Of a stretch of 64,000 nt of DNA, positions 5,519-48,508 are shown in pieces. The DNA is from Pyropia yezoensis (taxonomy: Eukaryota; Rhodophyta; Bangiophyceae; Bangiales; Bangiaceae), in the NCBI GenBank assembly GCA_009829735.1, contig CM020618.1, positions 43,228,878 through 43,292,877 of the forward strand, given 5' to 3'. Every line of letters begins with the position of its first letter. The first letter of the stretch is position 1. The notes below the pieces were generated by a model. The model ran no database searches. It was not told where the DNA came from and saw only the letters and a list, made by a program, of their open reading frames with translations. The position numbers and the translations under genes were made by a program.

Positions 5519-5986
5519 TGTGGCAAAAACCACTCGCACACACAGTACCCAAGTTGGGGCGGTGAGCGAGGGCTGCCTCCCGTGTCGGGGGAACCGGAAG
5601 AAGTGCAAGTCGCACACACTCTATCCCTGTTGTGGGGCAATCCCCCCACGGACAAACAAGAAGATGGTGTGTGGTCCAACAGTTTCTTGGTCGGGACGGG
5701 GACGCAGGGCCAAGCCCCGCTGTCCCTCCCCTTATCCCCCCAGGGTCCACTCAGAATCTCGCCACTCAGAATCTCCCACCCCAGCACCTGCCCACCGGGC
5801 CACACGAAAATTCAAGACGATAAATGCAGAAAACCCTCAAATCCAAGTTGGATTTACTACTAAGCTAACTATCCCGAACTTAGGGAATATGGACCCAAAT
5901 GCAGGGGGAGGAACGGACCAGGCTAGTGGCCTGCCGCCCCTTGCATGGCACGTGTTGCCCCCTACCTGGGGGTCAATACTGCCACA
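5519..5986 (-). repeat. Left LTR (sense 3' LTR), gypsy A copy 1
   Basis: 468 bp, TGTGGCAA to TGCCACA. Nearly identical to 14431-14898. It sits upstream of the plus-strand gene at 6330, so any antisense promoter for that gene should lie here. Ends carry the usual TG/CA. Confidence 0.92.
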
Positions 5987-5999
5987 CTCCCCTCTCCTC
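5987..5999 (-). promoter_or_regulatory. Polypurine tract, gypsy A copy 1
   Basis: On the sense (minus) strand GAGGAGAGGGGAG directly abuts the 3' LTR, the standard position and composition of the plus-strand DNA primer in LTR retrotransposons. Confidence 0.8.
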
Positions 6000-6329
6000 A
6001 GTTCCGACCGACCCGGTCGGCCCTGTGAGGGGGTGCGTAAACGCACGTCTCGGCGTTGGGGGGGGACGTGACTTGCTGTCCCCCCCTTGAGTACGTAACG
6101 CGGATGTGGAGGCGGTCACGTTGGCCGCCCCTCTCCTCAAGCTTGCCCACTTGGCAGCTTGCTCTCCTCGGTTCACACCTCACCACCACCACCACTTCTC
6201 CTTCACCTTACACGGGGCCACCCCACGCTGGGGAGGCCACCCGTTTACCCACGATCCGAGTCCCCCTCAACTCGAGGCGGGTCTCGTGCCGCGATAGCCA
6301 GGACGTCTCTCCCCAACTTGGGGAGAGCC

Positions 6330-8273
6330 ATGGCGACTCCGGGAGTGGAGACGGACTCTCTCGATGAGCGTATGGAGGACACCTCCTACGGTGCAGCGCC
6401 TGCCGGGACTTCCGGCGGGGGCTCCGCGATCGCTCCGGGGGGTGGGACTCCCGCGTCACCCGGCTTTGGGTTGACGGCAGGATCTCCCCCGGAGGCGGGA
6501 CAAGTTGTCCCGCGTGAGGCCTTGGGGCGGTGGTTTTACCCCGCTTGGCCTCTGTATGAGGAGGGGTTGACTGTTCTTCGCTGTGGCCGACTCGGCGCAG
6601 CGATGGGTCGGGTATGGGACCGCCTACGGGAGAAGTATCCCCGTAGGGTCGGGTTCCCTGCCGGCTTCAGGACGGACCAGTTTGCCTTCCTGGACGACGA
6701 GGAGGTCGAGGACGTGCAGCGGGCCAAGGCCATGGTGGACCGCGGGGGAACTATCCCGGGTCCCGGCGACTTGCCGACCTTCACTTGGGACGCGGTGGCA
6801 ACTCGCCCCCCGTACCTTCACGAGGCCGATCCGCACACTCATCACTTTGATGTGCGGATGGAGAAGGACTTCCGGCGAGGTCCCTACTTGGTGACCTCGG
6901 CTCAACTTGAGTTTCCTCAGCAGTCTGCTGCCAGTAAGGAGCAATACTACCCGAAGAAGCCCGAGTGGTGGCCTCAAGTTGAGGTCCCCTACGGGTTCCC
7001 GGCATTGTTGCCACGGTTGCTTGACCACTTCGGCTCCGTCATGTTGACGGCTGGCCCTGATCATCTGGTGTGGGCCATGTTGGCCACCCAGTGGCTCCTC
7101 GAGGTCATGTCGACCTGGGTGTCATGTGTTCAGCGGCGGGGGATGCTCTGGCATCTCCCCCTCCGGCTCATCCAGGGTTTGGAACAGCTCACCCCTCAGC
7201 TAGTTGCTGAGGGGTGCTCGTCAGGACAACTCACTCTACTTGAGGAGATGCTCCGCCTCCACAAGTTTATCGAGTGGGAGAGCATTGAGCACAAGTTGCG
7301 CCGCCCCACTCGGGGGCCCAAGGACGATGGCGCACTTCGCCAGTTCGTATGGGTCGCTCGTGAACTTCACGACGGCCGTGTGGTCCTACGAGAGGGGTTG
7401 GGCATCGGGGACTACCCGTATGCCCCGGGGGTGGATCGTCACACTGCGCCACCCCCGGACAAGCCCATAGTTATGGCTGTGCCCTCATATGATGACCATA
7501 TGACTCAACCTACTGCGGGGGCCCCAAGTCGGGGTCGCAGTTACACCCGGGTACCGCCACCTCGGCGTGCCCCTCCGCTTCCTCCTGTTCCTTTCCAGCC
7601 TCACGGGAACATCCCGATCAGCGTGGCCGTGGAGTCATCCACACCGGTGTCTCCCAACTTGGGGGCCACCCTCCTGACGGTATACCCCAAGTTGGTGTTA
7701 CCGCCCACGCCTCTAACCTCAGAGATGATGATCACCACGTTGGTGCGCACCATTTCCTGGTTGGCCGCGTCGACCGCAACCCTCCAAAGTTCCGAGACTC
7801 CTCAACTTGAGGAGCGCGTTCGTACTGCGGTGGCGACCGCGAGTTGCGAGTCGGTGGCGGAGTTTATGACGGCCGAGTTGGCTCGCATTGGGGCTATTAT
7901 GCCCCAGCCAACCCCACTTGGGCGTGGCAAGCGTCGTGCGAGCCGGGCATACTCGCCTCCTCGCCGTCGTCGCCGTCACTCGCGGCGCTCTCCCTCCGTG
8001 TCGGAAGACGAGTTGTCTTACTCCGTCTCGGAGTCCTCTACCCCATCGGAGACGGAGTCTGTCCAGCGTCTGCGTCGCAAACTTGCGCGCAAGACCAGGC
8101 AGAAGAGTAGCCACGGTCGGCGCCACTTGCGCGACCGTGAGGGGCGCGACGGTTCCGACTTGGAGCCGCCGCCCCTTCCAACGAGTGGAGACCGTTATCG
8201 GCGTGGGTCTCGCCGCTCGCCTCCACGTGAGGGCGAGGGCCGTGGAGTGGGAGAGTCTAGCATGCGTGCCTAG
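6330..8273 (+). CDS. Antisense accessory protein of gypsy A (aORF-A)
   Basis: 647-aa intact frame on the strand opposite gag-pol, starting at the ATG at 6330 and ending 111 nt before the pol stop, so the two genes converge. Layout: disordered Gly/Pro-rich N-terminus (1-60); a folded region 60-320 with WDRLREKYPRRV, YYPKKPEWWPQVEVPYGF (206-223) and LATQWLLEVM (251-260); a Pro-rich linker; a second folded stretch ~490-565; then an Arg/Ser-rich tail with RRRRRHSRRSPS, likely a nuclear signal and nucleic-acid contact. No enzyme motif, zinc finger or membrane segment is seen, which argues against an envelope. The core resembles the antisense gene of gypsy B (39609-41726). Function unknown; regulation or anti-silencing is only a hypothesis. 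Confidence 0.75.
   Translation: MATPGVETDSLDERMEDTSYGAAPAGTSGGGSAIAPGGGTPASPGFGLTAGSPPEAGQVVPREALGRWFYPAWPLYEEGLTVLRCGRLGAAMGRVWDRLREKYPRRVGFPAGFRTDQFAFLDDEEVEDVQRAKAMVDRGGTIPGPGDLPTFTWDAVATRPPYLHEADPHTHHFDVRMEKDFRRGPYLVTSAQLEFPQQSAASKEQYYPKKPEWWPQVEVPYGFPALLPRLLDHFGSVMLTAGPDHLVWAMLATQWLLEVMSTWVSCVQRRGMLWHLPLRLIQGLEQLTPQLVAEGCSSGQLTLLEEMLRLHKFIEWESIEHKLRRPTRGPKDDGALRQFVWVARELHDGRVVLREGLGIGDYPYAPGVDRHTAPPPDKPIVMAVPSYDDHMTQPTAGAPSRGRSYTRVPPPRRAPPLPPVPFQPHGNIPISVAVESSTPVSPNLGATLLTVYPKLVLPPTPLTSEMMITTLVRTISWLAASTATLQSSETPQLEERVRTAVATASCESVAEFMTAELARIGAIMPQPTPLGRGKRRASRAYSPPRRRRRHSRRSPSVSEDELSYSVSESSTPSETESVQRLRRKLARKTRQKSSHGRRHLRDREGRDGSDLEPPPLPTSGDRYRRGSRRSPPREGEGRGVGESSMRA
7190..7216. repeat. 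Perfect 11-bp hairpin inside aORF-A
   Basis: Arms CACCCCTCAGC (7190-7200) and GCTGAGGGGTG (7206-7216) with loop TAGTT. The longest of the many perfect short hairpins in element A; it is also present in copy 2. Confidence 0.9.
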
Positions 8274-8384
8274 TTGGCAGCTGCCTTTGTTGTGAGAGTG
8301 TGAGGGTTAGGGCTGTAGTTTAAAGCCACTCTGCGTACCACTTCGACTTGAAGCACTCTCTTGGCACTGTTGCTCGGCCTTCCC

Positions 8385-11300
8385 TCACGTTGAGGGAGGG
8401 CTGTTAGGGTCTATCTCGTTCCGGGCACAGTACGCCCGGACCTTCTCAGCAGGAAGGTCCTCCACATACTCCCACGTATCATCCTTGGCTTTGTAGCCAA
8501 ACCAACGCACCCTCAACATGAGGCGGTCAGTATCCTCATCCCAGCCGTGGTCGATGAACTTGTCGAACACGTACTCCTGCGGGCCCTGTTTGGCTGCAGG
8601 CAGCGAGGGCAGGCGCCACGTTTTCAAAGCACGCGCCCAAGCTGGGTCGCCTGCAGGCGGTGGTGCAACTTTGACCACGTCCTGTCCGTTCACTGTGCGG
8701 ACCCCATCGTCACTTTCGATGGTGAAGCGCCGCCCATCAGTACGAAGGACCTGGTACGGCCCCTTCGTCTGGAACACCAACTTACCCCCAGTTGGGGTGT
8801 GTGAGTGGACCAATACCCAGTCACCCTGCTCGGGGACATGCTTGGCGTTGCGCACCTTTTTGTCAAAGGTACGCTTGTAGCGCTTTTGTGCTTTGTCCAT
8901 CTCAGCCCTGACTTTAGGGATGAGGTTTTCAAGCCTAGCAGCGAACTCCGCCTTACTCTCAGTAGGAGTGGGCGTACTGCCACCATCCTCCCTAGTTGGG
9001 AGCGGCCGCCGCACGGCAATAGACCGCACGCGACGGGGGGTCACAAAAGCGAGGGGTACTTCCCCGGTAGATGAGTGAACCTGCGAATTGTAGGCAGTGG
9101 TCAGAATAGAAATGTATTGGTCCCACGTCTTCACGTGCTCACTCACATAATGGCGCAGCTGCCTAACAATAGTTTTGTTGAAGCGCTCCACCTGCCCATT
9201 AGTTTGTGGGTGGTAGGGGGTGGCATAGTTTGCCTTAACCCCCAACATATCCAGCACTCCTTGAAACAGTACAGACGCAAATTGCGGTCCATTGTCCGAT
9301 AGTGTACTATCCGGAATGCCATACGCGGCAACCCAGTGATCTAGGAAGGCTGACACGACCGACATGGCCGTGATCTCTGCCAGTGGGATCGCTCGCGTAA
9401 GTTTCGTGAAGCGGTCACAGATGACCAGGAGGTACTGGTTGCCCTCCTCGGTCACTGGCAGTGGCCCAAGGATGTCCATCGCCAACGCGGCGAAGGGCTC
9501 CTTGGCCGGGAACAATAGCATAGCCGTAGTAGGCCGCCGTTCCATCAGACGGTTCTGTGCACAACTTGTGCAGGCAGCCACCCAACTGTAGATGTCCACC
9601 ACCATGGACGGCCAGTAGTACCTGGTCCTCAGGGTCTGGTACAGTTTACTAGACCCCAGGTGTCCACCCGTGGGAGCGTTATGCTCCCTCTCAAGGATAC
9701 TGTCCTTGAGGGATGCGGGGACGACAAGTTGTTCGGTCCCCTGGAATACCCCCCTCCTCATGAGGAGGCCATCGTCTCCCAGGAAGAACCGCGTCTCCGC
9801 CACTGTATCCAGGGTATCCCTCTGCGACTTGCAGAAGGGATCCTCGGCCTGGGCCTTCACTACTTCGTCCAGGGACAGGGGCAAGTACTTCTTGTTCCCT
9901 GGCGCCTCGGGATTCAACGCCTGACCCGAGCGCGTGACTACCCCCACGATGGGGATGTCCTCATCGACTGGGGTGGTGTCCAGTCCCTCGGTAGGTACCC
10001 GAGAGAGGCCGTCGGCAAGGGCATGTTGCCTGCCAGGTCGGTACTCAATATCAAAGTTGAAGGGTGCAAGTCGCACCCTCCACCGGTTGAGACGAGTGTT
10101 CGTACAGTCCGTCTTGAAGATGAACTGCAACGCGCGGTGGTCACAGCGGATGAGGAACTTCTCACCCTCTAGGTAGTGACGAAGTGACGTCACCGCCCAT
10201 ACCACTGCGAGTCCTTCCAACTCGGTGACTCCGTAGTTCTTCTCGGCCGAGTTTAGCCCCTTGCTGAAGTATCCCACCGGCAAGTACTCCTTGTCCGGCT
10301 GTTGCTGAAGCAACACACAACCAAGTTGGTCGTAGCTAGCGTCCACATCCAGGATGTAGTGGCCTCCCAACCTGGGAATAGCCAGGATAGGGGGCTTCAG
10401 CAGAAGGTCCCGAAGAGTCTCAAAGGATTCCTGCTCCACCCGACTTGGGGGAGGCAGGTTCTTCGGTAGCGTTGAGCTCACTAACTCATTCAACGGCTTC
10501 GCCACTTTGGCGAAGCCCTTAGTGAAACGTCGGTACACGTTACACATCCCGAGGAAGCTCCTCATCTGGGTCTGGGTCCGGGGGTACTGAGCCTTGCGGA
10601 TGGCCCTCAAGTTTTTCTCGTTGACACTGAGACGCCCCGGACGGACAACATGTCCCAAGTACTCCACCTCTTGAGTGAAGAGGTGGCACTTACTCGCCTT
10701 CAGTGACACTCCGGCGTCAGCAAGTAGCTTGAACACCTGGCCAAGATGGCCAATGTGTTCCTCCGGACTTCGGGAGAACACAATGATATCGTCTAGGTAC
10801 ACGAGACAGATCTGCCACCGTACTCCGGCCAGAATCATGTCCATAGCGCGCTGGAAAGTTGCCGGCGCGTTACACAGGCCAAACGGTAGACGCTTGCACT
10901 GGTAGGTACCACAGTGACAGGTAAAGGTAGTTTTATGCCTGTCCTCCGGGGCAATGGGAATTTGCCAGTACCCCGCGTTACAGTCCAGGGTAGAGAACAC
11001 GTTTGCCTCCCCCAGAGAGTCCAGACAGTCATCCATCCGAGGTAGGGGATAACTATCCTTCACCGTGCTCTCGTTGAGCTTACGGTAGTCGATACAGAAC
11101 CGGGGGGTCCCATCAACTTTGGGGACGATCACCACCGGACTCGCCCACTCGGCGTTGCTGGCCTCGATCACATCGAGGGCCTCCATGCGAGCAACTTGCT
11201 CCTTAACGAGGGCCCTTGAACGGGGTCCCCCCCTATACGGTTGTTGGCGTATAGGGGGCGCACCGGGTTTCAACTCGATCCGGTGTTGGGTAGCTCTCAT

Positions 11301-12368
11301 GAGTCCCAATTGACCATCCCACAACTTGTGATATTGGTCCAAGAGGCGTTCAACTTGAACCCTCAACCTGGGTGGAACACCCTCCATGTTTACCTGGGGC
11401 CGAGGAGAGGCGGCCGACTTGGCTTGATGCTTCTCCTTTCCGGACTTCGGGTCGCTACTTGCGCCCGCGCTGAGGGTGACCGCTACTACCGGTCCCTCGT
11501 GTTGGTCGATATAGCCGAACTTGGCCCCCGACTTGAAGAACTTGGGCGACGAGCTCAGGTTCATCACCTGGATCCTCCACGGGACTCCGGCTTTGGAGTC
11601 CATCGTGCCAAGGGCAACATGCACTTGGTGCTTGCGAGCAAGACGGGGGTTAGGGTGCACCAACCCGTTCCCCGCATAATCAGTTACAACATTCACGTGC
11701 GCCACCGAGTTGGGGGGCAACATGACTTTACGGGCTAAACGCAAAGTAGCAGTAAACCCTTCCCTCACAGAACAAACAGGCTTCGACTGTGAAACTGTCA
11801 CAGGAGCCACAGACTTTCCCTTACCAAGGATGGGGATAGTCTCCCCATTCATCAACTTGACCCAGTACTCAGGGCCACAAATCAAAGGCACTTGTGTTAC
11901 GACATAAGGGGTACCCAGAAGCAGGGGTACCGATATATTCTCAACTACACCATAGGTCACGTCGACCTCATGGGTCCCCAACCGAGTTGGTAGGGTCACG
12001 GCACCAACGATGGGAAGTACCCCACCATTGATATCGATCAGATGGTCAGCTTTAGACTTCCAGCGTTGGAGCCTCATCCCCTTTGGTAATAGCGACTTGC
12101 GTATCAAGGAGGCTCCTGACCCGGTATCAAGTACGATACGGACACAACAGGCGCGGCCGGGGGCAAGTTGCACCCGTCCAGCCACCTGGAAGTTCTCACC
12201 CGTCAGCACCGCGATGACCCGACGTGGGTTTACGTTCTTGGGAAGTCCCACCCGAGGTAAGCGGACTCCCTTAGGTCGCCGCAGTATCCGACACGGTTGG
12301 TTCGTCCTCTTGGCCCACTTGGCCGAGGCTGCCGTTGTGAGCTTCGGACGACCAGCTCCAACGGTCAT
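8385..12368 (-). CDS. pol: Pol polyprotein, gypsy A copy 1 (PR-RT-RNaseH-INT-chromodomain)
   Basis: 1327 aa from the first in-frame ATG. Protease DTGSGAS at ~81 with PLLLGTPYV at ~148. Reverse transcriptase ~400-560 with LDCNAGYWQIP, LPFGLCNAPATFQRAM and YLDD at 524-527. RNase H from ~670 (YILDVDAS) to ~790. Integrase zinc finger H896, H903, C933, C936; catalytic D965, D1025, E1061. C-terminal chromodomain ~1255-1315 (LRVRWFGYKAKDDTWE), which in chromoviruses directs integration to marked chromatin. No stop or lost catalytic residue is seen, so it looks functional. Its ATG overlaps the gag TGA, but it is most likely entered by -1 frameshifting at 12371-12377. Confidence 0.95.
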   Translation of the reverse strand: MTVGAGRPKLTTAASAKWAKRTNQPCRILRRPKGVRLPRVGLPKNVNPRRVIAVLTGENFQVAGRVQLAPGRACCVRIVLDTGSGASLIRKSLLPKGMRLQRWKSKADHLIDINGGVLPIVGAVTLPTRLGTHEVDVTYGVVENISVPLLLGTPYVVTQVPLICGPEYWVKLMNGETIPILGKGKSVAPVTVSQSKPVCSVREGFTATLRLARKVMLPPNSVAHVNVVTDYAGNGLVHPNPRLARKHQVHVALGTMDSKAGVPWRIQVMNLSSSPKFFKSGAKFGYIDQHEGPVVAVTLSAGASSDPKSGKEKHQAKSAASPRPQVNMEGVPPRLRVQVERLLDQYHKLWDGQLGLMRATQHRIELKPGAPPIRQQPYRGGPRSRALVKEQVARMEALDVIEASNAEWASPVVIVPKVDGTPRFCIDYRKLNESTVKDSYPLPRMDDCLDSLGEANVFSTLDCNAGYWQIPIAPEDRHKTTFTCHCGTYQCKRLPFGLCNAPATFQRAMDMILAGVRWQICLVYLDDIIVFSRSPEEHIGHLGQVFKLLADAGVSLKASKCHLFTQEVEYLGHVVRPGRLSVNEKNLRAIRKAQYPRTQTQMRSFLGMCNVYRRFTKGFAKVAKPLNELVSSTLPKNLPPPSRVEQESFETLRDLLLKPPILAIPRLGGHYILDVDASYDQLGCVLLQQQPDKEYLPVGYFSKGLNSAEKNYGVTELEGLAVVWAVTSLRHYLEGEKFLIRCDHRALQFIFKTDCTNTRLNRWRVRLAPFNFDIEYRPGRQHALADGLSRVPTEGLDTTPVDEDIPIVGVVTRSGQALNPEAPGNKKYLPLSLDEVVKAQAEDPFCKSQRDTLDTVAETRFFLGDDGLLMRRGVFQGTEQLVVPASLKDSILEREHNAPTGGHLGSSKLYQTLRTRYYWPSMVVDIYSWVAACTSCAQNRLMERRPTTAMLLFPAKEPFAALAMDILGPLPVTEEGNQYLLVICDRFTKLTRAIPLAEITAMSVVSAFLDHWVAAYGIPDSTLSDNGPQFASVLFQGVLDMLGVKANYATPYHPQTNGQVERFNKTIVRQLRHYVSEHVKTWDQYISILTTAYNSQVHSSTGEVPLAFVTPRRVRSIAVRRPLPTREDGGSTPTPTESKAEFAARLENLIPKVRAEMDKAQKRYKRTFDKKVRNAKHVPEQGDWVLVHSHTPTGGKLVFQTKGPYQVLRTDGRRFTIESDDGVRTVNGQDVVKVAPPPAGDPAWARALKTWRLPSLPAAKQGPQEYVFDKFIDHGWDEDTDRLMLRVRWFGYKAKDDTWEYVEDLPAEKVRAYCARNEIDPNSPPST

Positions 12369-12377
12369 TCGTTTCCC
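12332..12377 (-). promoter_or_regulatory. -1 frameshift signal between gag and pol, gypsy A copy 1
   Basis: On the sense strand G GGA AAC (12371-12377) is in the gag frame as X XXY YYZ, followed by GAA and the TGA stop. Six nucleotides downstream starts a stem: CCGTTG (12359-12364 complement) and GAGCT pair with AGCTC and CAACGG, 11 bp with one bulged base and a 10-nt loop. Slippery heptamer, 6-nt spacer and strong stem are the three known parts of a -1 frameshift site. Slippage enters the pol frame directly as G-K-R-M-T-V. Confidence 0.75.
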
Positions 12378-14311
12378 GCCGACTTGGCGTCCGAATCTGA
12401 GGGCGAAGGGGACGACGACGAGTCCGAGGACGACGTGTCCGCCCCCTCCGTCGAGGGTGTGGCGACCGCCACCACTGGTCGAGACCCACCCTCGCGGCGT
12501 GAACGCACTTCGTTCGTAGCCGACTTCTTACTCGCATTCCTAACAAGCTGTTGGATGCGTTTACTCAACTTGGGGCAATCATATGCCCAGTGACCATCGG
12601 AGTTGCAGTTCCAACACCGATGATCAGTTCCCGGAGGGGTCTTCCCAACTGGGGAAGACGACGAGGTACCTTGGGAAGTTCCCACGGCAGCTACCACCCT
12701 CTCCTTGCGGATTCGGCGTGCCTCTCGCAACTCTCTGGCCTGGCGCGCCTCTTCCCGTTCCTTGGCCAACTCGGCCTGACGCTCCTGGCGTTGTTCCTCC
12801 CGCAACTTGCGGTAGGCCTCGCCTCTGCGGTAGGCGAACCTAGCCAACTCGGCCAGGGTCGCCCGGGCAGTGTTATGCTCCCGGGTCTCCATCCGGACTG
12901 ACCAGTGGAGTCCTTCCACAAACCGACTCTTCACCACAGCTTGTGGATGAAGAAACCCACAAAGATTGTTGAGCTTACGGACTCGCTCCGCAAAGGACAA
13001 CTCGTCCTCCGCCTCTTCCTGATGGGCTTGCGTAAACTCCTCGACTTGAGAAGCCAACGCCGCTTCATCAACCATGGCCCTCAACAACCAGTTGACGAGC
13101 TCCAAATAGGACGTCACCTCCCCAGCGCCTCCACTTGAGGAGCTGGGCATGACGGACATAAGTTCTGTCCGCAGGTCTCCCTTCGTAAACTCCTGTAGCA
13201 TGTAAAAAGCCATGCCTTCACTTATGGCATTGTCGTCACAGGCTTTTGTGAAACGACGTAGGAACTCAAAGACACGGAGGGGGGGAGTTCCATCCCACTC
13301 CGCTTTGTGCCCAAAAGAGTGAAGTGCATTCTTCTTGGCACGGCCCATGGCTCGGGCCTGGTCAGGACCATACGCCACCGACTTGTTGTGGAGGGCGTAG
13401 GTCTCACAGTCAAAGATCCTCTGGTAGACCGGGTTGGCTACCTGGATCTTGGGCGGCACCTCACGTTGAGGGAACAGCCGCTGTGGCACTGGGGTAAGTT
13501 CACCCACAGTGCCTGTAGTCCGGCGCGGCGCGCTTGGTGTAGCCGCCGGTGTTGTCGGGGGGAACTCCCCCATGAAGGGCGTACGCCCCACCGAGTATGG
13601 TGTGGCTCCCTCGTTGGGAGTCACAGGGGTCGCCCCCTGTTCAGGGCGACCCGAGATAGGTGTCAGGGGGGGCACCCCCTGCGCCTGCGGGCTCGAAGAC
13701 CCCAATCCGGTCTGGACATTAAGGCCATCTGGCAAACTCGCCACAATCTGATTCAGAATAGTATTCGTCATCGTGACCACCAGGTCCGGCAAAGTCTGCC
13801 GCAACACAGTGGTCGCCTCCCGACGGACAGTTTCCGCGAGGAGTGGATTGACGACTCCAGTTGAGTCTCGGTCCACCTCCGGGAGTCCACCTGAGGGGTA
13901 ACCACGTTTCTCAGGGGTCTCAACCGGGGGCATGGGCGCGAGCCCATCGCCGACCAACGGAGGTCCGCCGTCCTCCGAAAGCCTAGTTGGCGATGGCTCC
14001 ATGCCAAAGTTGGCTCCAACCCGAGTGGAACTCGCGGGGACAGTCCTCACCCCTTGGGACGTTCCCGTTGAGTATACCACGCGGTGGCCAGACTTCGGCC
14101 CACCCACGTCAGAAGTGTCACCCGAGTGAACTCCCGACTGAGTCAGGGTGGCCTGTTGCCCGCCCGCACTTCCAGTCCTGCTGGCTTGAGGGACCTCTAG
14201 TCCCTCTGCGACCCCAGGTAAACCCACCTGTGTCTCACCAGTATTCAAAGGCACTGAAGTACGTGCGTCACCCGTGTACTCCCCGGACGACGGGGGGTCC
14301 GAGCTAGCCAT
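12365..14311 (-). CDS. gag: Gag protein, gypsy A copy 1
   Basis: 648 aa from the ATG at 14311. Disordered Pro/Thr/Gly-rich N-terminal half, then the retrotransposon Gag fold (FDCETYALHNKS, PLRVFEFLRRFTKACDDN, LELVNWLLRAMVDEAAL, EAEDELSFAERVRKL), a charged helical segment rich in RQERQAELAKER, and one CCHC zinc knuckle RCWNCNSDGHWAYDCP. It packages element RNA into particles. The Pro-rich segment (13440-13700) differs clearly from copy 2, more than the rest of the element. Confidence 0.9.
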   Translation of the reverse strand: MASSDPPSSGEYTGDARTSVPLNTGETQVGLPGVAEGLEVPQASRTGSAGGQQATLTQSGVHSGDTSDVGGPKSGHRVVYSTGTSQGVRTVPASSTRVGANFGMEPSPTRLSEDGGPPLVGDGLAPMPPVETPEKRGYPSGGLPEVDRDSTGVVNPLLAETVRREATTVLRQTLPDLVVTMTNTILNQIVASLPDGLNVQTGLGSSSPQAQGVPPLTPISGRPEQGATPVTPNEGATPYSVGRTPFMGEFPPTTPAATPSAPRRTTGTVGELTPVPQRLFPQREVPPKIQVANPVYQRIFDCETYALHNKSVAYGPDQARAMGRAKKNALHSFGHKAEWDGTPPLRVFEFLRRFTKACDDNAISEGMAFYMLQEFTKGDLRTELMSVMPSSSSGGAGEVTSYLELVNWLLRAMVDEAALASQVEEFTQAHQEEAEDELSFAERVRKLNNLCGFLHPQAVVKSRFVEGLHWSVRMETREHNTARATLAELARFAYRRGEAYRKLREEQRQERQAELAKEREEARQARELREARRIRKERVVAAVGTSQGTSSSSPVGKTPPGTDHRCWNCNSDGHWAYDCPKLSKRIQQLVRNASKKSATNEVRSRREGGSRPVVAVATPSTEGADTSSSDSSSSPSPSDSDAKSAGNE

Positions 14312-14410
14312 GTTGGCTAACGATCCGTATGACACGGTCCAAGTCCACCGTTCCTCTGAGACAGAGGGCCCCCTACACCCGGGTGCACCCGGAGGTAAAG
14401 TTTACCTCTG

Positions 14411-14428
14411 TCCCCTGCTGCTCCACCA
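14411..14428 (-). promoter_or_regulatory. Primer binding site, gypsy A copy 1
   Basis: On the sense strand, two bases after the 5' LTR, TGGTGGAGCAGCAGGGGA would pair with a tRNA 3' end reading ...CTCCACCA. The same 18 bases occur in gypsy B at 47911-47928. The tRNA identity is not resolved here. Confidence 0.75.
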
Positions 14429-14430
14429 AA

Positions 14431-14898
14431 TGTGGCAAAAACCACTCGCACACACAGTACCCAAGTTGGGGCGGTGTGCGAGGGCTGCCTCCCGTGTCGG
14501 GGGAACCGGAAGAAGTGCAAGTCGCACACACTCTATCCCTGTTGTGGGGCAATCCCCCCACGGACAAACAAGAAGATGGTGTGTGGTCCAACAGTTTCTT
14601 GGTCGGGACGGGGACGCAGGGCCAAGCCCCGCTGTCCCTCCCCTTATCCCCCCAGGGTCCACTCAGAATCTCGCCACTCAGAATCTCCCACCCCAGCACC
14701 TGCCCACCGGGCCACACGAAAATTCAAGACGATAAATGCAGAAAACCCTCAAATCCAAGTTGGATTTACTACTAAGCTAACTATCCCGAACTTAGGGAAT
14801 ATGGACCCAAATGCAGGGGGAGGAACGGATCAGGCTAGTGGCCTGCCGCCCCTTGCATGGCACGTGTTGCCCCCTACCTGGGGGTCAATACTGCCACA
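14431..14898 (-). repeat. Right LTR (sense 5' LTR), gypsy A copy 1
   Basis: 468 bp; differs from the left LTR near 14478 (ggtgtgcg versus ggtgagcg) and 14828 (gatcagg versus gaccagg). Followed directly by satellite rather than ACATG. Confidence 0.9.
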
Positions 14899-21142: not shown

Positions 21143-21609
21143 TGTGGCAAAAACCACTCGCACACACAGTACCCAAGTTGGGGCGGTGAGCGAGGGCTGC
21201 CTCCCGTGTCGGGGGAACCGGAAGAAGTGCAAGTCGCACACACTCTATCCCTGTTGTGGGGCAATCCCCCACGGACAAACAAGAAGATGGTGTGTGGTCC
21301 AACAGTTTCTTGGTCGGGACGGGGACGCAGGGCCAAGCCCCGCTGTCCCTCCCCTTATCCCCCCAGGGTCCACTCAGAATCTCGCCACTCAGAATCTCCC
21401 ACCCCAGCACCTGCCCACCGGGCCACACGAAAATTCAAGACGATAAATGCAGAAAACCCTCAAATCCAAGTTGGATTTACTACTAAGCTAACTATCCCGA
21501 ACTTAGGGAATATGGACCCAAATGCAGGGGGAGGAACGGACCAGGCTAGTGGCCTGCCGCCCCTTGCATGGCACGTGTTGCCCCCTACCTGGGGGTCAAT
21601 ACTGCCACA
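21143..21609 (-). repeat. Left LTR (sense 3' LTR), gypsy A copy 2
   Basis: 467 bp; one C shorter than its partner at a C run near 21267. Confidence 0.92.
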
Positions 21610-21951
21610 CTCCCCTCTCCTCAGTTCCGACCGACCCGGTCGGCCCTGTGAGGGGGTGCGTAAACGCACGTCTCGGCGTTGGGGGGGGACGTGACTTGCT
21701 GTCCCCCCTTGAGTACGTAACGCGGATGTGGAGGCGGTCACGTTGGCCGCCCCTCTCCTCAAGCTTGCCCACTTGGCAGCTTGCTCTCCTCGGTTCACAC
21801 CTCACCACCACCACCACTTCTCCTTCACCTTACACGGGGCCACCCCACGCTGGGGAGGCCACCCGTTTACCCACGATCCGAGTCCCCCTCAACTCGAGGC
21901 GGGTCTCGTGCCGCGATAGCCAGGACGTCTCTCCCCAACTTGGGGAGAGCC

Positions 21952-23895
21952 ATGGCGACTCCGGGAGTGGAGACGGACTCTCTCGATGAGCGTATGGAGG
22001 ACACCTCCTACGGTGCAGCGCCTGCCGGGACTTCCGGCGGGGGCTCCGCGATCGCTCCGGGGGGTGGGACTCCCGCGTCACCCGGCTTTGGGTTGACGGC
22101 AGGATCTCCCCCGGAGGCGGGACAAGTTGTCCCGCGTGAGGCCTTGGGGCGGTGGTTTTACCCCGCTTGGCCTCTGTATGAGGAGGGGTTGACTGTTCTT
22201 CGCTGTGGCCGACTCGGCGCAGCGATGGGTCGGGTATGGGACCGCCTACGGGAGAAGTATCCCCGTAGGGTCGGGTTCCCTGCCGGCTTCAGGACGGACC
22301 AGTTTGCCTTCCTGGACGACGAGGAGGTCGAGGACGTGCAGCGGGCCAAGGCCATGGTGGACCGCGGGGGAACTATCCCGGGTCCCGGCGACTTGCCGAC
22401 CTTCACTTGGGACGCGGTGGCAACTCGCCCCCCGTACCTTCACGAGGCCGATCCGCACACTCATCACTTTGATGTGCGGATGGAGAAGGACTTCCGGCGA
22501 GGTCCCTACTTGGTGACCTCGGCTCAACTTGAGTTTCCTCAGCAGTCTGCTGCCAGTAAGGAGCAATACTACCCGAAGAAGCCCGAGTGGTGGCCTCAAG
22601 TTGAGGTCCCCTACGGGTTCCCGGCATTGTTGCCACGGTTGCTTGACCACTTCGGCTCCGTCATGTTGACGGCTGGCCCTGATCATCTGGTGTGGGCCAT
22701 GTTGGCCACCCAGTGGCTCCTCGAGGTCATGTCGACCTGGGTGTCATGTGTTCAGCGGCGGGGGATGCTCTGGCATCTCCCCCTCCGGCTCATCCAGGGT
22801 TTGGAACAGCTCACCCCTCAGCTAGTTGCTGAGGGGTGCTCGTCAGGACAACTCACTCTACTTGAGGAGATGCTCCGCCTCCACAAGTTTATCGAGTGGG
22901 AGAGCATTGAGCACAAGTTGCGCCGCCCCACTCGGGGGCCCAAGGACGATGGCGCACTTCGCCAGTTCGTATGGGTCGCTCGTGAACTTCACGACGGCCG
23001 TGTGGTCCTACGAGAGGGGTTGGGCATCGGGGACTACCCGTATGCCCCGGGGGTGGATCGTCACACTGCGCCACCCCCGGACAAGCCCATAGTTATGGCT
23101 GTGCCCTCATATGATGACCATATGACTCAACCTACTGCGGGGGCCCCAAGTCGGGGTCGCAGTTACACCCGGGTACCGCCACCTCGGCGTGCCCCTCCGC
23201 TTCCTCCTGTTCCTTTCCAGCCTCACGGGAACATCCCGATCAGCGTGGCCGTGGAGTCATCCACACCGGTGTCTCCCAACTTGGGGGCCACCCTCCTGAC
23301 GGTATACCCCAAGTTGGTGTTACCGCCCACGCCTCTAACCTCAGAGATGATGATCACCACGTTGGTGCGCACCATTTCCTGGTTGGCCGCGTCGACCGCA
23401 ACCCTCCAAAGTTCCGAGACTCCTCAACTTGAGGAGCGCGTTCGTACTGCGGTGGCGACCGCGAGTTGCGAGTCGGTGGCGGAGTTTATGACGGCCGAGT
23501 TGGCTCGCATTGGGGCTATTATGCCCCAGCCAACCCCACTTGGGCGTGGCAAGCGTCGTGCGAGCCGGGCATACTCGCCTCCTCGCCGTCGTCGCCGTCA
23601 CTCGCGGCGCTCTCCCTCCGTGTCGGAAGACGAGTTGTCTTACTCCGTCTCGGAGTCCTCTACCCCATCGGAGACGGAGTCTGTCCAGCGTCTGCGTCGC
23701 AAACTTGCGCGCAAGACCAGGCAGAAGAGTAGCCACGGTCGGCGCCACTTGCGCGACCGTGAGGGGCGCGACGGTTCCGACTTGGAGCCGCCGCCCCTTC
23801 CAACGAGTGGAGACCGTTATCGGCGTGGGTCTCGCCGCTCGCCTCCACGTGAGGGCGAGGGCCGTGGAGTGGGAGAGTCTAGCATGCGTGCCTAG
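21952..23895 (+). CDS. Antisense accessory protein of gypsy A (aORF-A), copy 2
   Basis: 647 aa with the same sequence as the copy at 6330-8273 as far as I can compare, and intact. That an antisense frame of this length stays open and unchanged in both copies argues that it is translated rather than a chance open frame. Same convergent arrangement with pol. Confidence 0.75.
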   Translation: MATPGVETDSLDERMEDTSYGAAPAGTSGGGSAIAPGGGTPASPGFGLTAGSPPEAGQVVPREALGRWFYPAWPLYEEGLTVLRCGRLGAAMGRVWDRLREKYPRRVGFPAGFRTDQFAFLDDEEVEDVQRAKAMVDRGGTIPGPGDLPTFTWDAVATRPPYLHEADPHTHHFDVRMEKDFRRGPYLVTSAQLEFPQQSAASKEQYYPKKPEWWPQVEVPYGFPALLPRLLDHFGSVMLTAGPDHLVWAMLATQWLLEVMSTWVSCVQRRGMLWHLPLRLIQGLEQLTPQLVAEGCSSGQLTLLEEMLRLHKFIEWESIEHKLRRPTRGPKDDGALRQFVWVARELHDGRVVLREGLGIGDYPYAPGVDRHTAPPPDKPIVMAVPSYDDHMTQPTAGAPSRGRSYTRVPPPRRAPPLPPVPFQPHGNIPISVAVESSTPVSPNLGATLLTVYPKLVLPPTPLTSEMMITTLVRTISWLAASTATLQSSETPQLEERVRTAVATASCESVAEFMTAELARIGAIMPQPTPLGRGKRRASRAYSPPRRRRRHSRRSPSVSEDELSYSVSESSTPSETESVQRLRRKLARKTRQKSSHGRRHLRDREGRDGSDLEPPPLPTSGDRYRRGSRRSPPREGEGRGVGESSMRA

Positions 23896-24006
23896 TTGGC
23901 AGCTGCCTTTGTTGTGAGAGTGTGAGGGTTAGGGCTGTAGTTTAAAGCCACTCTGCGTACCACTTCGACTTGAAGCACTCTCTTGGCACTGTTGCTCGGC
24001 CTTCCC

Positions 24007-27000
24007 TCACGTTGAGGGAGGGCTGTTAGGGTCTATCTCGTTCCGGGCACAGTACGCCCGGACCTTCTCAGCAGGAAGGTCCTCCACATACTCCCACGTA
24101 TCATCCTTGGCTTTGTAGCCAAACCAACGCACCCTCAACATGAGGCGGTCAGTATCCTCATCCCAGCCGTGGTCGATGAACTTGTCGAACACGTACTCCT
24201 GCGGGCCCTGTTTGGCTGCAGGCAGCGAGGGCAGGCGCCACGTTTTCAAAGCACGCGCCCAAGCTGGGTCGCCTGCAGGCGGTGGTGCAACTTTGACCAC
24301 GTCCTGTCCGTTCACTGTGCGGACCCCATCGTCACTTTCGATGGTGAAGCGCCGCCCATCAGTACGAAGGACCTGGTACGGCCCCTTCGTCTGGAACACC
24401 AACTTACCCCCAGTTGGGGTGTGTGAGTGGACCAATACCCAGTCACCCTGCTCGGGGACATGCTTGGCGTTGCGCACCTTTTTGTCAAAGGTACGCTTGT
24501 AGCGCTTTTGTGCTTTGTCCATCTCAGCCCTGACTTTAGGGATGAGGTTTTCAAGCCTAGCAGCGAACTCCGCCTTACTCTCAGTAGGAGTGGGCGTACT
24601 GCCACCATCCTCCCTAGTTGGGAGCGGCCGCCGCACGGCAATAGACCGCACGCGACGGGGGGTCACAAAAGCGAGGGGTACTTCCCCGGTAGATGAGTGA
24701 ACCTGCGAATTGTAGGCAGTGGTCAGAATAGAAATGTATTGGTCCCACGTCTTCACGTGCTCACTCACATAATGGCGCAGCTGCCTAACAATAGTTTTGT
24801 TGAAGCGCTCCACCTGCCCATTAGTTTGTGGGTGGTAGGGGGTGGCATAGTTTGCCTTAACCCCCAACATATCCAGCACTCCTTGAAACAGTACAGACGC
24901 AAATTGCGGTCCATTGTCCGATAGTGTACTATCCGGAATGCCATACGCGGCAACCCAGTGATCTAGGAAGGCTGACACGACCGACATGGCCGTGATCTCT
25001 GCCAGTGGGATCGCTCGCGTAAGTTTCGTGAAGCGGTCACAGATGACCAGGAGGTACTGGTTGCCCTCCTCGGTCACTGGCAGTGGCCCAAGGATGTCCA
25101 TCGCCAACGCGGCGAAGGGCTCCTTGGCCGGGAACAATAGCATAGCCGTAGTAGGCCGCCGTTCCATCAGACGGTTCTGTGCACAACTTGTGCAGGCAGC
25201 CACCCAACTGTAGATGTCCACCACCATGGACGGCCAGTAGTACCTGGTCCTCAGGGTCTGGTACAGTTTACTAGACCCCAGGTGTCCACCCGTGGGAGCG
25301 TTATGCTCCCTCTCAAGGATACTGTCCTTGAGGGATGCGGGGACGACAAGTTGTTCGGTCCCCTGGAATACCCCCCTCCTCATGAGGAGGCCATCGTCTC
25401 CCAGGAAGAACCGCGTCTCCGCCACTGTATCCAGGGTATCCCTCTGCGACTTGCAGAAGGGATCCTCGGCCTGGGCCTTCACTACTTCGTCCAGGGACAG
25501 GGGCAAGTACTTCTTGTTCCCTGGCGCCTCGGGATTCAACGCCTGACCCGAGCGCGTGACTACCCCCACGATGGGGATGTCCTCATCGACTGGGGTGGTG
25601 TCCAGTCCCTCGGTCGGTACCCGAGAGAGGCCGTCGGCAAGGGCATGTTGCCTGCCAGGTCGGTACTCAATATCAAAGTTGAAGGGTGCAAGTCGCACCC
25701 TCCACCGGTTGAGACGAGTGTTCGTACAGTCCGTCTTGAAGATGAACTGCAACGCGCGGTGGTCACAGCGGATGAGGAACTTCTCACCCTCTAGGTAGTG
25801 ACGAAGTGACGTCACCGCCCATACCACTGCGAGTCCTTCCAACTCGGTGACTCCGTAGTTCTTCTCGGCCGAGTTTAGCCCCTTGCTGAAGTATCCCACC
25901 GGCAAGTACTCCTTGTCCGGCTGTTGCTGAAGCAACACACAACCAAGTTGGTCGTAGCTAGCGTCCACATCCAGGATGTAGTGGCCTCCCAACCTGGGAA
26001 TAGCCAGGATAGGGGGCTTCAGCAGAAGGTCCCGAAGAGTCTCAAAGGATTCCTGCTCCACCCGACTTGGGGGAGGCAGGTTCTTCGGTAGCGTTGAGCT
26101 CACTAACTCATTCAACGGCTTCGCCACTTTGGCGAAGCCCTTAGTGAAACGTCGGTACACGTTACACATCCCGAGGAAGCTCCTCATCTGGGTCTGGGTC
26201 CGGGGGTACTGAGCCTTGCGGATGGCCCTCAAGTTTTTCTCGTTGACACTGAGACGCCCCGGACGGACAACATGTCCCAAGTACTCCACCTCTTGAGTGA
26301 AGAGGTGGCACTTACTCGCCTTCAGTGACACTCCGGCGTCAGCAAGTAGCTTGAACACCTGGCCAAGATGGCCAATGTGTTCCTCCGGACTTCGGGAGAA
26401 CACAATGATATCGTCTAGGTACACGAGACAGATCTGCCACCGTACTCCGGCCAGAATCATGTCCATAGCGCGCTGGAAAGTTGCCGGCGCGTTACACAGG
26501 CCAAACGGTAGGCGCTTGCACTGGTAGGTACCACAGTGACAGGTAAAGGTAGTTTTATGCCTGTCCTCCGGGGCAATGGGAATTTGCCAGTACCCCGCGT
26601 TACAGTCCAGGGTAGAGAACACGTTTGCCTCCCCCAGAGAGTCCAGACAGTCATCCACCCGAGGTAGGGGATAACTATCCTTCACCGTGCTCTCGTTGAG
26701 CTTACGGTAGTCGATACAGAACCGGGGGGTCCCATCAACTTTGGGGACGATCACCACCGGACTCGCCCACTCGGCGTTGCTGGCCTCGATCACATCGAGG
26801 GCCTCCATGCGAGCAACTTGCTCCTTAACGAGGGCCCTTGAACGGGGTCCCCCCCTATACGGTTGTTGGCGTATAGGGGGCGCACCGGGTTTCAACTCGA
26901 TCCGGTGTTGGGTAGCTCTCATGAGTCCCAGTTGACCATCCCACAACTTGTGATATTGGTCCAAGAGGCGTTCAACTTGAACCCTCAACCTGGGTGGAAC

Positions 27001-27990
27001 ACCCTCCATGTTTACCTGGGGCCGAGGAGAGGCGGCCGACTTGGCTTGATGCTTCTCCTTTCCGGACTTCGGGTCGCTACTTGCGCCCGCGCTGAGGGTG
27101 ACCGCTACTACCGGTCCCTCGTGTTGGTCGATATAGCCGAACTTGGCCCCCGACTTGAAGAACTTGGGCGACGAGCTCAGGTTCATCACCTGAATCCTCC
27201 ACGGGACTCCGGCTTTGGAGTCCATCGTGCCAAGGGCAACATGCACTTGGTGCTTGCGAGCAAGACGGGGGTTAGGGTGCACCAACCCGTTCCCCGCATA
27301 ATCAGTTACAACATCCACGTGCGCCACCGAGTTGGGGGGCAACATGACTTTACGGGCTAAACGCAGAGTAGCAGTAAACCCTTCCCTCACAGAACAAACA
27401 GGCTTCGACTGTGAAACTGTCACAGGAGCCACAGACTTTCCCTTACCAAGGATGGGGATAGTCTCCCCATTCATCAACTTGACCCAGTACTCAGGGCCAC
27501 AAATCAAAGGCACTTGTGTTACGACATAAGGGGTACCCAGAAGCAGGGGTACCGATATATTCTCAACTACACCATAGGTCACGTCGACCTCATGGGTCCC
27601 CAACCGAGTTGGTAGGGTCACGGCACCAACGATGGGAAGTACCCCACCATTGATATCGATCAGATGGTCAGCTTTAGACTTCCAGCGTTGGAGCCTCATC
27701 CCCTTTGGTAATAGCGACTTGCGTATCAAGGAGGCTCCTGACCCGGTATCAAGTACGATACGGGCACAACAGGCGCGGCCGGGGGCAAGTTGCACCCGTC
27801 CAGCCACCTGGAAGTTCTCACCCGTCAGCACCGCGATGACCCGACGTGGGTTTACGTTCTTGGGAAGTCCCACCCGAGGTGGGCGGACTCCCTTAGGTCG
27901 CCTCAGTATCCGACACGGTTGGTTCGTCCTCTTGGCCCACTTGGCCGAGGCTGCCGTTGTGAGCTTCGGACGACCAGCTCCAACGGTCAT
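24007..27990 (-). CDS. pol: Pol polyprotein, gypsy A copy 2
   Basis: 1327 aa, intact, with all PR, RT (YLDD), RNase H, integrase HHCC and DDE, and chromodomain residues of copy 1. Differences seen by eye: L37P, V76A, N225D, M445V (numbered from the ATG). Confidence 0.95.
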   Translation of the reverse strand: MTVGAGRPKLTTAASAKWAKRTNQPCRILRRPKGVRPPRVGLPKNVNPRRVIAVLTGENFQVAGRVQLAPGRACCARIVLDTGSGASLIRKSLLPKGMRLQRWKSKADHLIDINGGVLPIVGAVTLPTRLGTHEVDVTYGVVENISVPLLLGTPYVVTQVPLICGPEYWVKLMNGETIPILGKGKSVAPVTVSQSKPVCSVREGFTATLRLARKVMLPPNSVAHVDVVTDYAGNGLVHPNPRLARKHQVHVALGTMDSKAGVPWRIQVMNLSSSPKFFKSGAKFGYIDQHEGPVVAVTLSAGASSDPKSGKEKHQAKSAASPRPQVNMEGVPPRLRVQVERLLDQYHKLWDGQLGLMRATQHRIELKPGAPPIRQQPYRGGPRSRALVKEQVARMEALDVIEASNAEWASPVVIVPKVDGTPRFCIDYRKLNESTVKDSYPLPRVDDCLDSLGEANVFSTLDCNAGYWQIPIAPEDRHKTTFTCHCGTYQCKRLPFGLCNAPATFQRAMDMILAGVRWQICLVYLDDIIVFSRSPEEHIGHLGQVFKLLADAGVSLKASKCHLFTQEVEYLGHVVRPGRLSVNEKNLRAIRKAQYPRTQTQMRSFLGMCNVYRRFTKGFAKVAKPLNELVSSTLPKNLPPPSRVEQESFETLRDLLLKPPILAIPRLGGHYILDVDASYDQLGCVLLQQQPDKEYLPVGYFSKGLNSAEKNYGVTELEGLAVVWAVTSLRHYLEGEKFLIRCDHRALQFIFKTDCTNTRLNRWRVRLAPFNFDIEYRPGRQHALADGLSRVPTEGLDTTPVDEDIPIVGVVTRSGQALNPEAPGNKKYLPLSLDEVVKAQAEDPFCKSQRDTLDTVAETRFFLGDDGLLMRRGVFQGTEQLVVPASLKDSILEREHNAPTGGHLGSSKLYQTLRTRYYWPSMVVDIYSWVAACTSCAQNRLMERRPTTAMLLFPAKEPFAALAMDILGPLPVTEEGNQYLLVICDRFTKLTRAIPLAEITAMSVVSAFLDHWVAAYGIPDSTLSDNGPQFASVLFQGVLDMLGVKANYATPYHPQTNGQVERFNKTIVRQLRHYVSEHVKTWDQYISILTTAYNSQVHSSTGEVPLAFVTPRRVRSIAVRRPLPTREDGGSTPTPTESKAEFAARLENLIPKVRAEMDKAQKRYKRTFDKKVRNAKHVPEQGDWVLVHSHTPTGGKLVFQTKGPYQVLRTDGRRFTIESDDGVRTVNGQDVVKVAPPPAGDPAWARALKTWRLPSLPAAKQGPQEYVFDKFIDHGWDEDTDRLMLRVRWFGYKAKDDTWEYVEDLPAEKVRAYCARNEIDPNSPPST

Positions 27991-27999
27991 TCGTTTCCC
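27954..27999 (-). promoter_or_regulatory. -1 frameshift signal, gypsy A copy 2
   Basis: GGGAAAC at 27993-27999 and the downstream 11-bp stem-loop are the same as in copy 1 (12332-12377). Confidence 0.75.
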
Positions 28000-29933: not shown

Positions 29934-30032
29934 GTTGGCTAACGATCCGTATGACACGGTCCAAGTCCACCGTTCCTCTGAGACAGAGGGCCCCCTACAC
30001 CCGGGTGCACCCGGAGGTAAAGTTTACCTCTG

Positions 30033-30050
30033 TCCCCTGCTGCTCCACCA
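30033..30050 (-). promoter_or_regulatory. Primer binding site, gypsy A copy 2
   Basis: Same 18 bases as 14411-14428, two bases inside the 5' LTR. Confidence 0.75.
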
Positions 30051-30052
30051 AA

Positions 30053-30520
30053 TGTGGCAAAAACCACTCGCACACACAGTACCCAAGTTGGGGCGGTGAG
30101 CGAGGGCTGCCTCCCGTGTCGGGGGAACCGGAAGAAGTGCAAGTCGCACACACTCTATCCCTGTTGTGGGGCAATCCCCCCACGGACAAACAAGAAGATG
30201 GTGTGTGGTCCAACAGTTTCTTGGTCGGGACGGGGACGCAGGGCCAAGCCCCGCTGTCCCTCCCCTTATCCCCCCAGGGTCCACTCAGAATCTCGCCACT
30301 CAGAATCTCCCACCCCAGCACCTGCCCACCGGGCCACACGAAAATTCAAGACGATAAATGCAGAAAACCCTCAAATCCAAGTTGGATTTACTACTAAGCT
30401 AACTATCCCGAACTTAGGGAATATGGACCCAAATGCAGGGGGAGGAACGGACCAGGCTAGTGGCCTGCCGCCCCTTGCATGGCACGTGTTGCCCCCTACC
30501 TGGGGGTCAATACTGCCACA
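30053..30520 (-). repeat. Right LTR (sense 5' LTR), gypsy A copy 2
   Basis: 468 bp, followed by the target duplication ACATG. Confidence 0.92.
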
Positions 30521-38853: not shown

Positions 38854-39424
38854 TGTGGTATAAAACTCGATCCTCTCAGACACGTGTCTATATCCCTCGG
38901 GGGAAAGGGACAGGTAACATAGAAAGGGGAACTACGAGAATGGTATGCCTGTTGCCTCACGTGCCTGCTCGCAGAGCAAACAGATACGCACGGTAGTGCA
39001 CACGGGGAAGAGGAAAGCAAACGCGCAGTTGTCTTTTTCCTGAGGGCGCGGGCCAAGGGCGCCTCGCTGTCCCTCTTAACGTGCATCTGGGGGAGCCTCG
39101 GCACGTTGGCCAGGTAGCCCCCCCATAACCCCGAGTGGCCCCGACCCGAGTCTAACCTCGTCAGGTCGGGGGCCACTATCACTACTAATTCTATTCCCAC
39201 TCACTAATCTCACACTCAAATTTTCTCAAATCAAGTCCCTCACAAGTATGCAAAAACCCATCAGCAATCCCTCTCTCTCGTGTGGATAGCGTAGTCCACC
39301 GCATCCCAGTGCCGGGCACGGGCCACGGCCGCCAACCATCACCACACGGCGGGCGTGTTCCGGCACCTGGTGCCCTCTGGTTGTAGTCCCGGGTCGGCGC
39401 CAAGTCGGGGCCAGGGATGCTGCA
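38854..39424 (-). repeat. Left LTR (sense 3' LTR), gypsy B
   Basis: 571 bp. On the plus strand TATAAAA lies at 38859-38865, five bases from the edge, oriented to drive transcription toward the plus-strand gene. Confidence 0.92.
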
Positions 39425-39427
39425 TAG

Positions 39428-47928: not shown

Positions 47929-47932
47929 AATA

Positions 47933-48503: not shown

Positions 48504-48508
48504 AGCAC

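Follow-up and report, generated by a model that had tools for sequence, protein, structure and literature searches.

Element A, a Ty3-type long terminal repeat (LTR) retrotransposon of Pyropia yezoensis (Rhodophyta), carries a large excess of short perfect hairpins, and most of this excess is centred on the trinucleotide A-(G/C)-T. The element lies in a 64-kb stretch of contig CM020618.1 (C1; positions 43,228,878 to 43,292,877 of assembly GCA_009829735.1), hereafter the window, and the genome searched for its relatives comprises 107.5 Mb in 11 contigs. Judged by comparison of sequences, the hairpins are dispersed, evidently selected and restricted to one clade of elements, and they have a family-specific core and a somewhat even spacing. 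We tentatively propose, with a probability of about 0.45, that they constitute a dispersed and selected stem-loop code, the core of which would be read by a protein of the element itself in the manner of multi-site packaging signals. An earlier note on the window had drawn attention to the hairpins; it made no mention of an A(G/C)T core in the loops, of a spelling that differs by family or of the sister family C.

The earlier note listed 13 stems in element A, and all 13 are present, with lengths of 11 bp at 11229-11258 and 10 bp at 10495-10517 in place of the shorter ones given; seven of them carry the A(G/C)T core. Its claim of an excess throughout the coding sequence holds against both dinucleotide and synonymous-codon shuffles, less strongly in gag. 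Perfect Watson-Crick stems with loops of 3-10 nt were counted against 200 windowed dinucleotide shuffles: element A has 57, 29, 12, 7 and 3 stems of at least 6, 7, 8, 9 and 10 bp, against shuffle means of 20.8, 5.6, 1.5, 0.35 and 0.08, and no shuffle reached the observed counts (p = 0.005, the floor of 200 shuffles). At the same minimal lengths, synonymous-codon shuffles give 7.1, 1.9, 0.5, 0.1 and 0.02 stems for the 25, 11, 5, 3 and 2 observed in pol, and 5.5, 1.2, 0.25, 0.06 and 0.01 for the 12, 7, 4, 2 and 1 observed in the opposite-strand open reading frame (ORF). The excess in gag is weaker (11, 5, 2, 1 and 0 against 4.8, 1.2, 0.4, 0.1 and 0; p = 0.01, 0.015, 0.06, 0.08 and 1). Element B, a related element in the same window that serves as a natural control, stays at the shuffle level, as the note had also stated (21, 5, 0, 0 and 0 against 19.7, 5.0, 1.3, 0.3 and 0.06). 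The excess in element A is highest for loops of 0-15 nt, fades at 20-40 nt and is gone above 40 nt. In A and C, inverted repeats reach z values of 9-13.5, mirror repeats show no excess (z < 1), and direct or same-direction complementary repeats of at least 7 bp reach z of at most 3.6. A count in host sequence, which the note had proposed as a comparison, also yields more inverted repeats than the shuffles at 48507-64000 (84, 33 and 11 against about 55, 16 and 5); mirror and direct repeats surpass the shuffles there even more, so the excess in the host stretch is attributable to low complexity.

The core was first spotted by eye in the list of loops of element A; tests in A, C and B followed. 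Odd-loop stems of at least 6 bp are centred on A(G/C)T in 17 of 34 cases in A (1.2 expected) and 27 of 52 in C (1.9 expected), against 0 of 17 in B. When trinucleotides with at least 20 occurrences are ranked by the self-complementarity of their flanks, AGT and ACT take the top two places in both A (0.422 and 0.379; next 0.300, mean 0.269) and C (0.385 and 0.366; next 0.298, mean 0.266); neither is among the five highest in element B, another Ty3-type locus or host DNA. Taking as strong those hairpins in which 5 or more of the 7 possible pairs next to the core form, we find 65 among the 342 A(G/C)T sites of A, including three counted once per LTR, and 52 among the 310 sites of C, with about 5 expected in each. 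Codon-preserving shuffles of element A give 1.5 strong hairpins for the 15 in gag, 2.1 for the 27 in pol and 2.0 for the 16 in the opposite-strand ORF; the corresponding genes of element B contain 1, 0 and 1. The core lies in or next to the loop of 18 stems of at least 7 bp in A (1.2 in shuffles) and of 22 in C (1.0). The strong hairpins of A occur on average once per 140 bp across the LTRs and all three genes, occupy all three codon phases in each gene, and are spaced somewhat evenly: the coefficient of variation is 0.76 in both A and C, where random picks give 0.94 and 0.97 (p = 0.03 and 0.02, respectively).

The core reads the same on both strands except at its centre base, and each family has its own spelling of it. 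The heptamer CAA(G/C)TTG occurs 22 times in A against 1.4 in shuffles, and CGA(G/C)TCG 11 times in C against 1.7. Sites of the A family require the core to be preceded by A or followed by T: AAGTT and AAGTC score 0.59, CAGTT 0.54 and GAGTT 0.52, while sites breaking the rule score low (GAGTC 0.25, CAGTC 0.21). The same rule is upheld in five further copies of the A clade (L024, L029, L035, L030 and L032). In family C the rule is G before or C after the core, with 0.55 for AAGTC, 0.45 for CAGTC and 0.39 for GAGTC against 0.20 for both CAGTG and CAGTA. The sequences thus show that the arms can take any sequence as long as they are complementary, and that the loop core is specific, AA(G/C)TT-like in A and GA(G/C)TC-like in C.

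A degenerate reverse-transcriptase motif has 1639 matches in the genome, and 30 loci were fetched and scored beside A and B; these were picked by the spelling of the motif among the matches listed, lie mostly on C1 and are not a random sample. The stem excess was found in 11 A-like copies, weakly in one of them, L030 (z7 2.1), and in one copy of family C, L012. None of the 16 B-like or other Ty3-type loci among the 30 shows it. The two loci left unclassed are L020, which is mixed and contains nested A sequence, and L034, which could not be aligned to A (43% identity) and was excluded from copy comparisons; L034 has a stem excess (z7 4.1) but an A(G/C)T signal of z -0.3. L036 and L038 align partially, and alignment failures removed L024 from the gag block and L017 from the opposite-strand block. 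L043, fetched as a candidate for family C, turned out to be A-like (96%); family C is represented by L012 and L044. The A(G/C)T index over pol windows has a z of 8.7 in A, 5.0-8.6 in 11 of 12 loci of the A and C clades and 2.1 in the partial copy L036, and the remaining loci reach at most 2.5. Over the 323 kb scanned, strong hairpins have a density of 5.6 per kb in A-like and 4.0 in C-like sequence, against 0.53 in B-like sequence and 0.29 in other DNA.

The pol of family C is 57-62% identical to that of element A, and the stem excess in L012 extends over gag, both pieces of pol and the opposite-strand ORF. Hairpins of A and C coincide in position about as often as rotation would have it in gag (1 against 1.2) and the opposite-strand ORF (1 against 1.5), with 2 and 4 coincidences in the two pol pieces against 1.1 and 1.2 expected, including the hairpin at 10664-10686. 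Since the hairpins of the two families are at mostly different positions, the code seems to be kept while its sites turn over.

Comparison of copies suggests that arms and cores of the hairpins are under selection, a conclusion supported by tests made per site on core loss and codon positions. Of 65 hairpin sites, 3 have lost the core in three close copies, compared with 32 of 173 sites that form no more than 2 of 7 pairs (p = 0.007); in seven more distant copies the losses are 29 of 62 against 118 of 176 non-hairpin sites (p = 0.006). Paired arm positions d3-7 differ among the close copies in 11 of 1386 cases, against 122 of 3560 for unpaired positions at non-hairpin sites. At third codon positions of gag and pol, 4 of 156 sites within arms have changed, compared with 183 of 1738 outside the arms (p = 0.0004), and first and second codon positions do not differ between arms and the outside. 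Stems are retained beyond the null expectation (p ≤ 0.05) in 15 of 20 comparisons of pol. Compensatory changes in stems of at least 6 bp number 19 in the A clade against 5-11 in slid controls; with family C added they number 45 against 18-37, and 16 against 11-16 for stems of at least 7 bp, although these pooled counts, like those of defects and variability below, treat related copies as partly separate.

Several observations weigh against a selected code with a single core. Stems of at least 7 bp that contain no A(G/C)T are still in excess (11 against 4.2 in A, 9 against 3.7 in C), so that a smaller part of the excess is left unexplained by the core, and the C rule is the less strict one, AT-type cores in C keeping 0.36. 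Third-position changes in distant copies have the same direction as in close ones but fall short of significance (54 of 156 against 700 of 1685; p = 0.11). With all stems lumped, the polarised differences between two subgroups of A, one copy representing its group in gag and the opposite-strand ORF, give 6 gains, where 7.0 would be expected, together with 16 losses among 143. Retention exceeds permuted controls in none of 10 comparisons of gag and only 3 of 10 of the opposite-strand ORF; arm divergence, again with all stems lumped, is not lower in the distant copy L030 or in family C; and compensatory changes in A-clade stems of at least 7 bp are not in excess (6 against 3-6). Unpaired positions within strong hairpins vary more among close copies (0.073) than do positions around non-hairpin A(G/C)T sites (0.035). 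We infer that the mixed conservation results reflect dilution by chance stems and by decaying copies. The last points of this kind concern the strand on which the hairpins act: in neither orientation are G.U pairs better tolerated than A.C pairs or other mismatches, and AGT and ACT are equally frequent (35:30 in A and 25:27 in C), as expected of a strand-blind reader.

An RNA fold read on one strand is expected to favour G.U over A.C. Stems with a single defect contain 57 GU and 55 AC; the 160 non-Watson-Crick pairs of strong hairpins comprise 35 GU, 41 AC and 84 others; and in A and C together the near/far ratios around A(G/C)T are 0.78 for GU, 0.78 for AC and 0.80 for other mismatches, in a test made without a known-RNA positive control. 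A fold of the sense RNA thus receives no support from G.U tolerance, and the lack of gain from G.U pairs leaves room for a reader that acts at the level of DNA or on two strands. The folding energy, which the note had proposed to compare on both strands, is likewise in excess over shuffles on both: in 100-nt windows by 15.5 and 15.9% in A and by 18.5 and 18.1% in C, against 0.8-1.0% in B and -1.0 to -1.2% in another Ty3-type locus (L022). In 350-nt windows the excess on the sense strand is 15.7% in A, 17.7% in C and 0.4% in B, and the two strands of A have 15.7 and 14.1%. Of the two explanations that the note had offered, selected RNA structure is therefore upheld in part: conserved arms and cores, third codon positions and folding energy speak for selection, and action as RNA is not borne out by the G.U test and the equality of strands. 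The hairpins may function as DNA, on both RNA strands or in strictly paired RNA.

Under the packaging-like reading, a nucleic-acid-binding protein encoded by the element would read the loop core, most likely Gag through its zinc knuckle and less likely the basic protein of the opposite-strand ORF. Because the hairpins are restricted to one clade and spelled differently in each family, such a reader is preferred to a host factor. It would bind many weak sites cooperatively, and the binding would serve to recognise, pack or compact the genome of the element itself as it passes through retrotransposition. In a more specific form, which we regard as doubtful, the approximately 65 hairpins would be strand-blind DNA structures serving as a family-specific password to the element's own protein, so that sister families sharing a nucleus would neither copy nor pack each other.

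The foremost alternative, on the whole unlikely, is that the hairpins act in DNA, folding in single-stranded complementary DNA while reverse transcription proceeds or extruding as small cruciforms from the integrated copy, with a strand-blind protein reading the near-palindromic core. Pairing restricted to Watson-Crick pairs, a folding-energy excess about equal on both strands and the equal use of AGT and ACT in a core that is almost its own reverse complement all fit this alternative. With 5-8 bp, the arms are short for cruciforms to be stable, Pfam recognises no known DNA-hairpin-binding domain in the proteins of element A, and the bases flanking the core show weak sense-strand asymmetries, detected post hoc (A clade, one-sided p = 0.044; C, on the other side, 0.062). 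Less plausible still is a genome-scale ordered RNA structure (GORS) without a specific reader, which would protect the RNA, slow the annealing of sense and antisense or evade silencing, the core reflecting a thermodynamic or replication preference. The excess of folding energy in 350-nt windows is in the range of structured viruses, poor conservation of stem positions is what PMC7642675 describes for such structure, and protection of two strands would account for G.U not being favoured. A structure of this kind predicts neither a single loop core nor its change between families, and element B has none despite the same ambisense layout.

A purely mutational origin, the second explanation of the earlier note, fares poorly and is in our judgement improbable. 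A template-switching reverse transcriptase would make imperfect palindromes perfect without any function, which is consistent with the pairing being Watson-Crick only and with the clade restriction; the core C-R-A-S-T-Y-G could conceivably nucleate the fold-back. Such switches should leave changes clustered in one arm, yet among two-defect stems, all lumped, the changes fall in the same arm in 65 cases, in different arms in 57 and otherwise in 11. The hairpin at 11229-11258 was perfected in separate steps, the youngest comparison shows no excess of new stems, and arms and cores of close copies change less than other sites, third codon positions included. A purely mutational process predicts no conserved cores, and the conserved cores therefore count against template switching. 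Chance, base composition, codon usage or low complexity have next to no chance of explaining element A in view of the dinucleotide and synonymous shuffles, the mirror- and direct-repeat controls and element B.

To our knowledge, how an LTR retrotransposon picks out its own genome from the hundreds of related elements that share its nucleus is an open question. Given a dispersed, selected and family-specific loop code, this choice could be tested on purified proteins and synthetic hairpins; from sequence alone, any genome can be screened with the A(G/C)T index. If the proposal is true, an LTR retrotransposon labels its own genetic material with an address, and the idea of packaging signals, developed for RNA viruses and hepatitis B virus, extends to cellular retroelements. 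Should the hairpins act in DNA, their reader would be of a kind new to retroelements as far as we know. Searches of the open literature in PubMed Central listed no report of such a hairpin code in an LTR retrotransposon.

Element A has the features of a Ty3-type LTR retrotransposon, namely LTRs and, in this order, reverse transcriptase, RNase H and integrase (Table 1). Its pol matches the Pfam families PF00078, PF17917/PF17919, PF17921 and PF00665; a check for the chromovirus branch gave a chromodomain match (PF00385) of 19.5 bits, under the curated cutoff of 25.1. The 704-aa opposite-strand protein has no Pfam match, and a database search that scored 7996 candidates listed one match, 97% identical; its structure model is unusable, with a mean predicted local distance difference test score (pLDDT) of 31.8. 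An Rfam scan of 5519-14898 returned no match at E ≤ 1, and no relatives of pol were confirmed among the viral contigs searched. Opposite-strand ORFs are also found in family C and in element B, where the ORF at 39417-41726 (+) lies between pol and the 3' LTR and encodes 769 aa, 25% identical to the 704 aa of A; the pol of element B is about 48% identical to that of A. The pol region of the family C copy L012 (3426-7462) consists of two overlapping open frames of 812 and 540 aa, owing to a frameshift, damage to the copy or an assembly error. The sequence TTTGGTGGAGCAGCAGGGG, common to elements A and B and located directly or nearly directly after the 5' LTR, is perhaps the same primer binding site in both.

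Table 1. Coordinates of elements, genes and individual hairpins in the window
Feature	Position	Strand	Description
Element A	5519..14898	-	Ty3-type LTR retrotransposon, gag-pol on - strand; LTR pair by self-BLAST, Pfam domains
5' LTR of element A	14431..14898	-	468 bp; sense TGTGGC...GCCACA; hairpin centres 14759, 14791, 14838
3' LTR of element A	5519..5986	-	468 bp; hairpin centres 5847, 5879, 5926
gag ORF, element A	12365..14335	-	656 aa, one CCHC zinc knuckle; PF00098 24.8 bits, cutoff 20.8
pol ORF, element A	8385..12368	-	1327 aa; reverse transcriptase, RNase H, integrase, weak chromodomain match
Opposite-strand ORF, element A	6159..8273	+	704 aa; between pol and 3' LTR; C-terminal part basic, arginine/serine-rich
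A', second near-identical copy of element A	21143..30520	-	in duplicated stretch; 64 strong hairpins
Element B	38854..48506	-	related Ty3-type element, ambisense layout as in A; natural control
Hairpin	6307..6327	.	9-bp stem, loop ACT (CAACTTG core)
Hairpin	6495..6513	.	8-bp stem, loop AGT (CAAGTTG core)
Hairpin	7190..7216	.	11-bp stem, loop TAGTT, A(G/C)T-centred
Hairpin	9690..9710	.	8-bp stem, loop TACTG
Hairpin	10061..10079	.	7-bp stem, loop AAGTC
Hairpin	10495..10517	.	10-bp stem; perfect in 7 of 10 other loci shown for that stem
Hairpin	10664..10686	.	9-bp stem, loop GAGTG; stem also at homologous place in family C
Hairpin	11229..11258	.	11-bp stem, loop without A(G/C)T; perfected stepwise among subfamilies
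Hairpin	11830..11848	.	7-bp stem, loop TAGTC
Hairpin	12639..12659	.	8-bp stem, loop AACTG
Hairpin	14392..14408	.	7-bp stem, loop AGT, 5' LTR-gag interval

A stretch of 14.1 kb including element A is present twice in the window (770-14898 and 16416-30520; 99.2% identity, 55 gap openings) and adjoins a gap of 500 N at 15916-16415. It looks like a haplotig or an assembly duplication, the same insertion being held twice. Beside element A, a stretch of 434 bp is repeated with 99.8% identity (14899-15332 and 15482-15915). Between A' and B, translations inspected by eye, without a family search, suggest another type of reverse-transcriptase element and an ORF resembling a transposase at 36426-39200 (-) and 34050-35426 (-).

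Quasi-palindrome correction and short template switches are processes that yield perfect short inverted repeats with Watson-Crick pairing; unlike their products, element A lacks one-arm clusters of changes and has a conserved loop core. Integron attC sites and the hairpin promoters of phage N4 are read by structure, with free arms, few conserved bases and Watson-Crick pairing; these systems use single or few sites, whereas about 65 are spread through element A. In their ambisense layout, elements A, B and C resemble the plant LTR retrotransposons Grande, RIRE2 and Retand, whose antisense ORFs are located after pol and before the 3' LTR; a dispersed hairpin code is not mentioned for them in the accessible portion of PMC7264820. 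The genome-wide folding-energy excess over shuffles by which GORS is recognised is present in A and C, and its size is similar to that given in PMC7642675 for SARS-CoV-2 (around 15%), above the values for hepatitis C virus (7.5-10.7%) and the mean of unstructured viruses (1.1%); poor conservation of stem positions between relatives is a further likeness. Unlike GORS, A and C have one loop core that marks most of the excess, a family-specific spelling and about equal strands. Packaging-signal-mediated assembly differs from our case in that element A is an LTR retrotransposon, its near-palindromic core occurs as AGT and ACT alike, G.U is not favoured and binding would be a matter of inference; by analogy the hairpins may work like packaging signals, short of an established membership in that class. 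The likeness consists in many short stem-loops across the coding sequence that share a short loop motif, 65 in A and 52 in C, much as dispersed stem-loops with -RGAG- loops are described for hepatitis B virus in PMC7612645, and dispersed stem-loops with a short loop motif for the contacts of enterovirus-E in PMC7793301.

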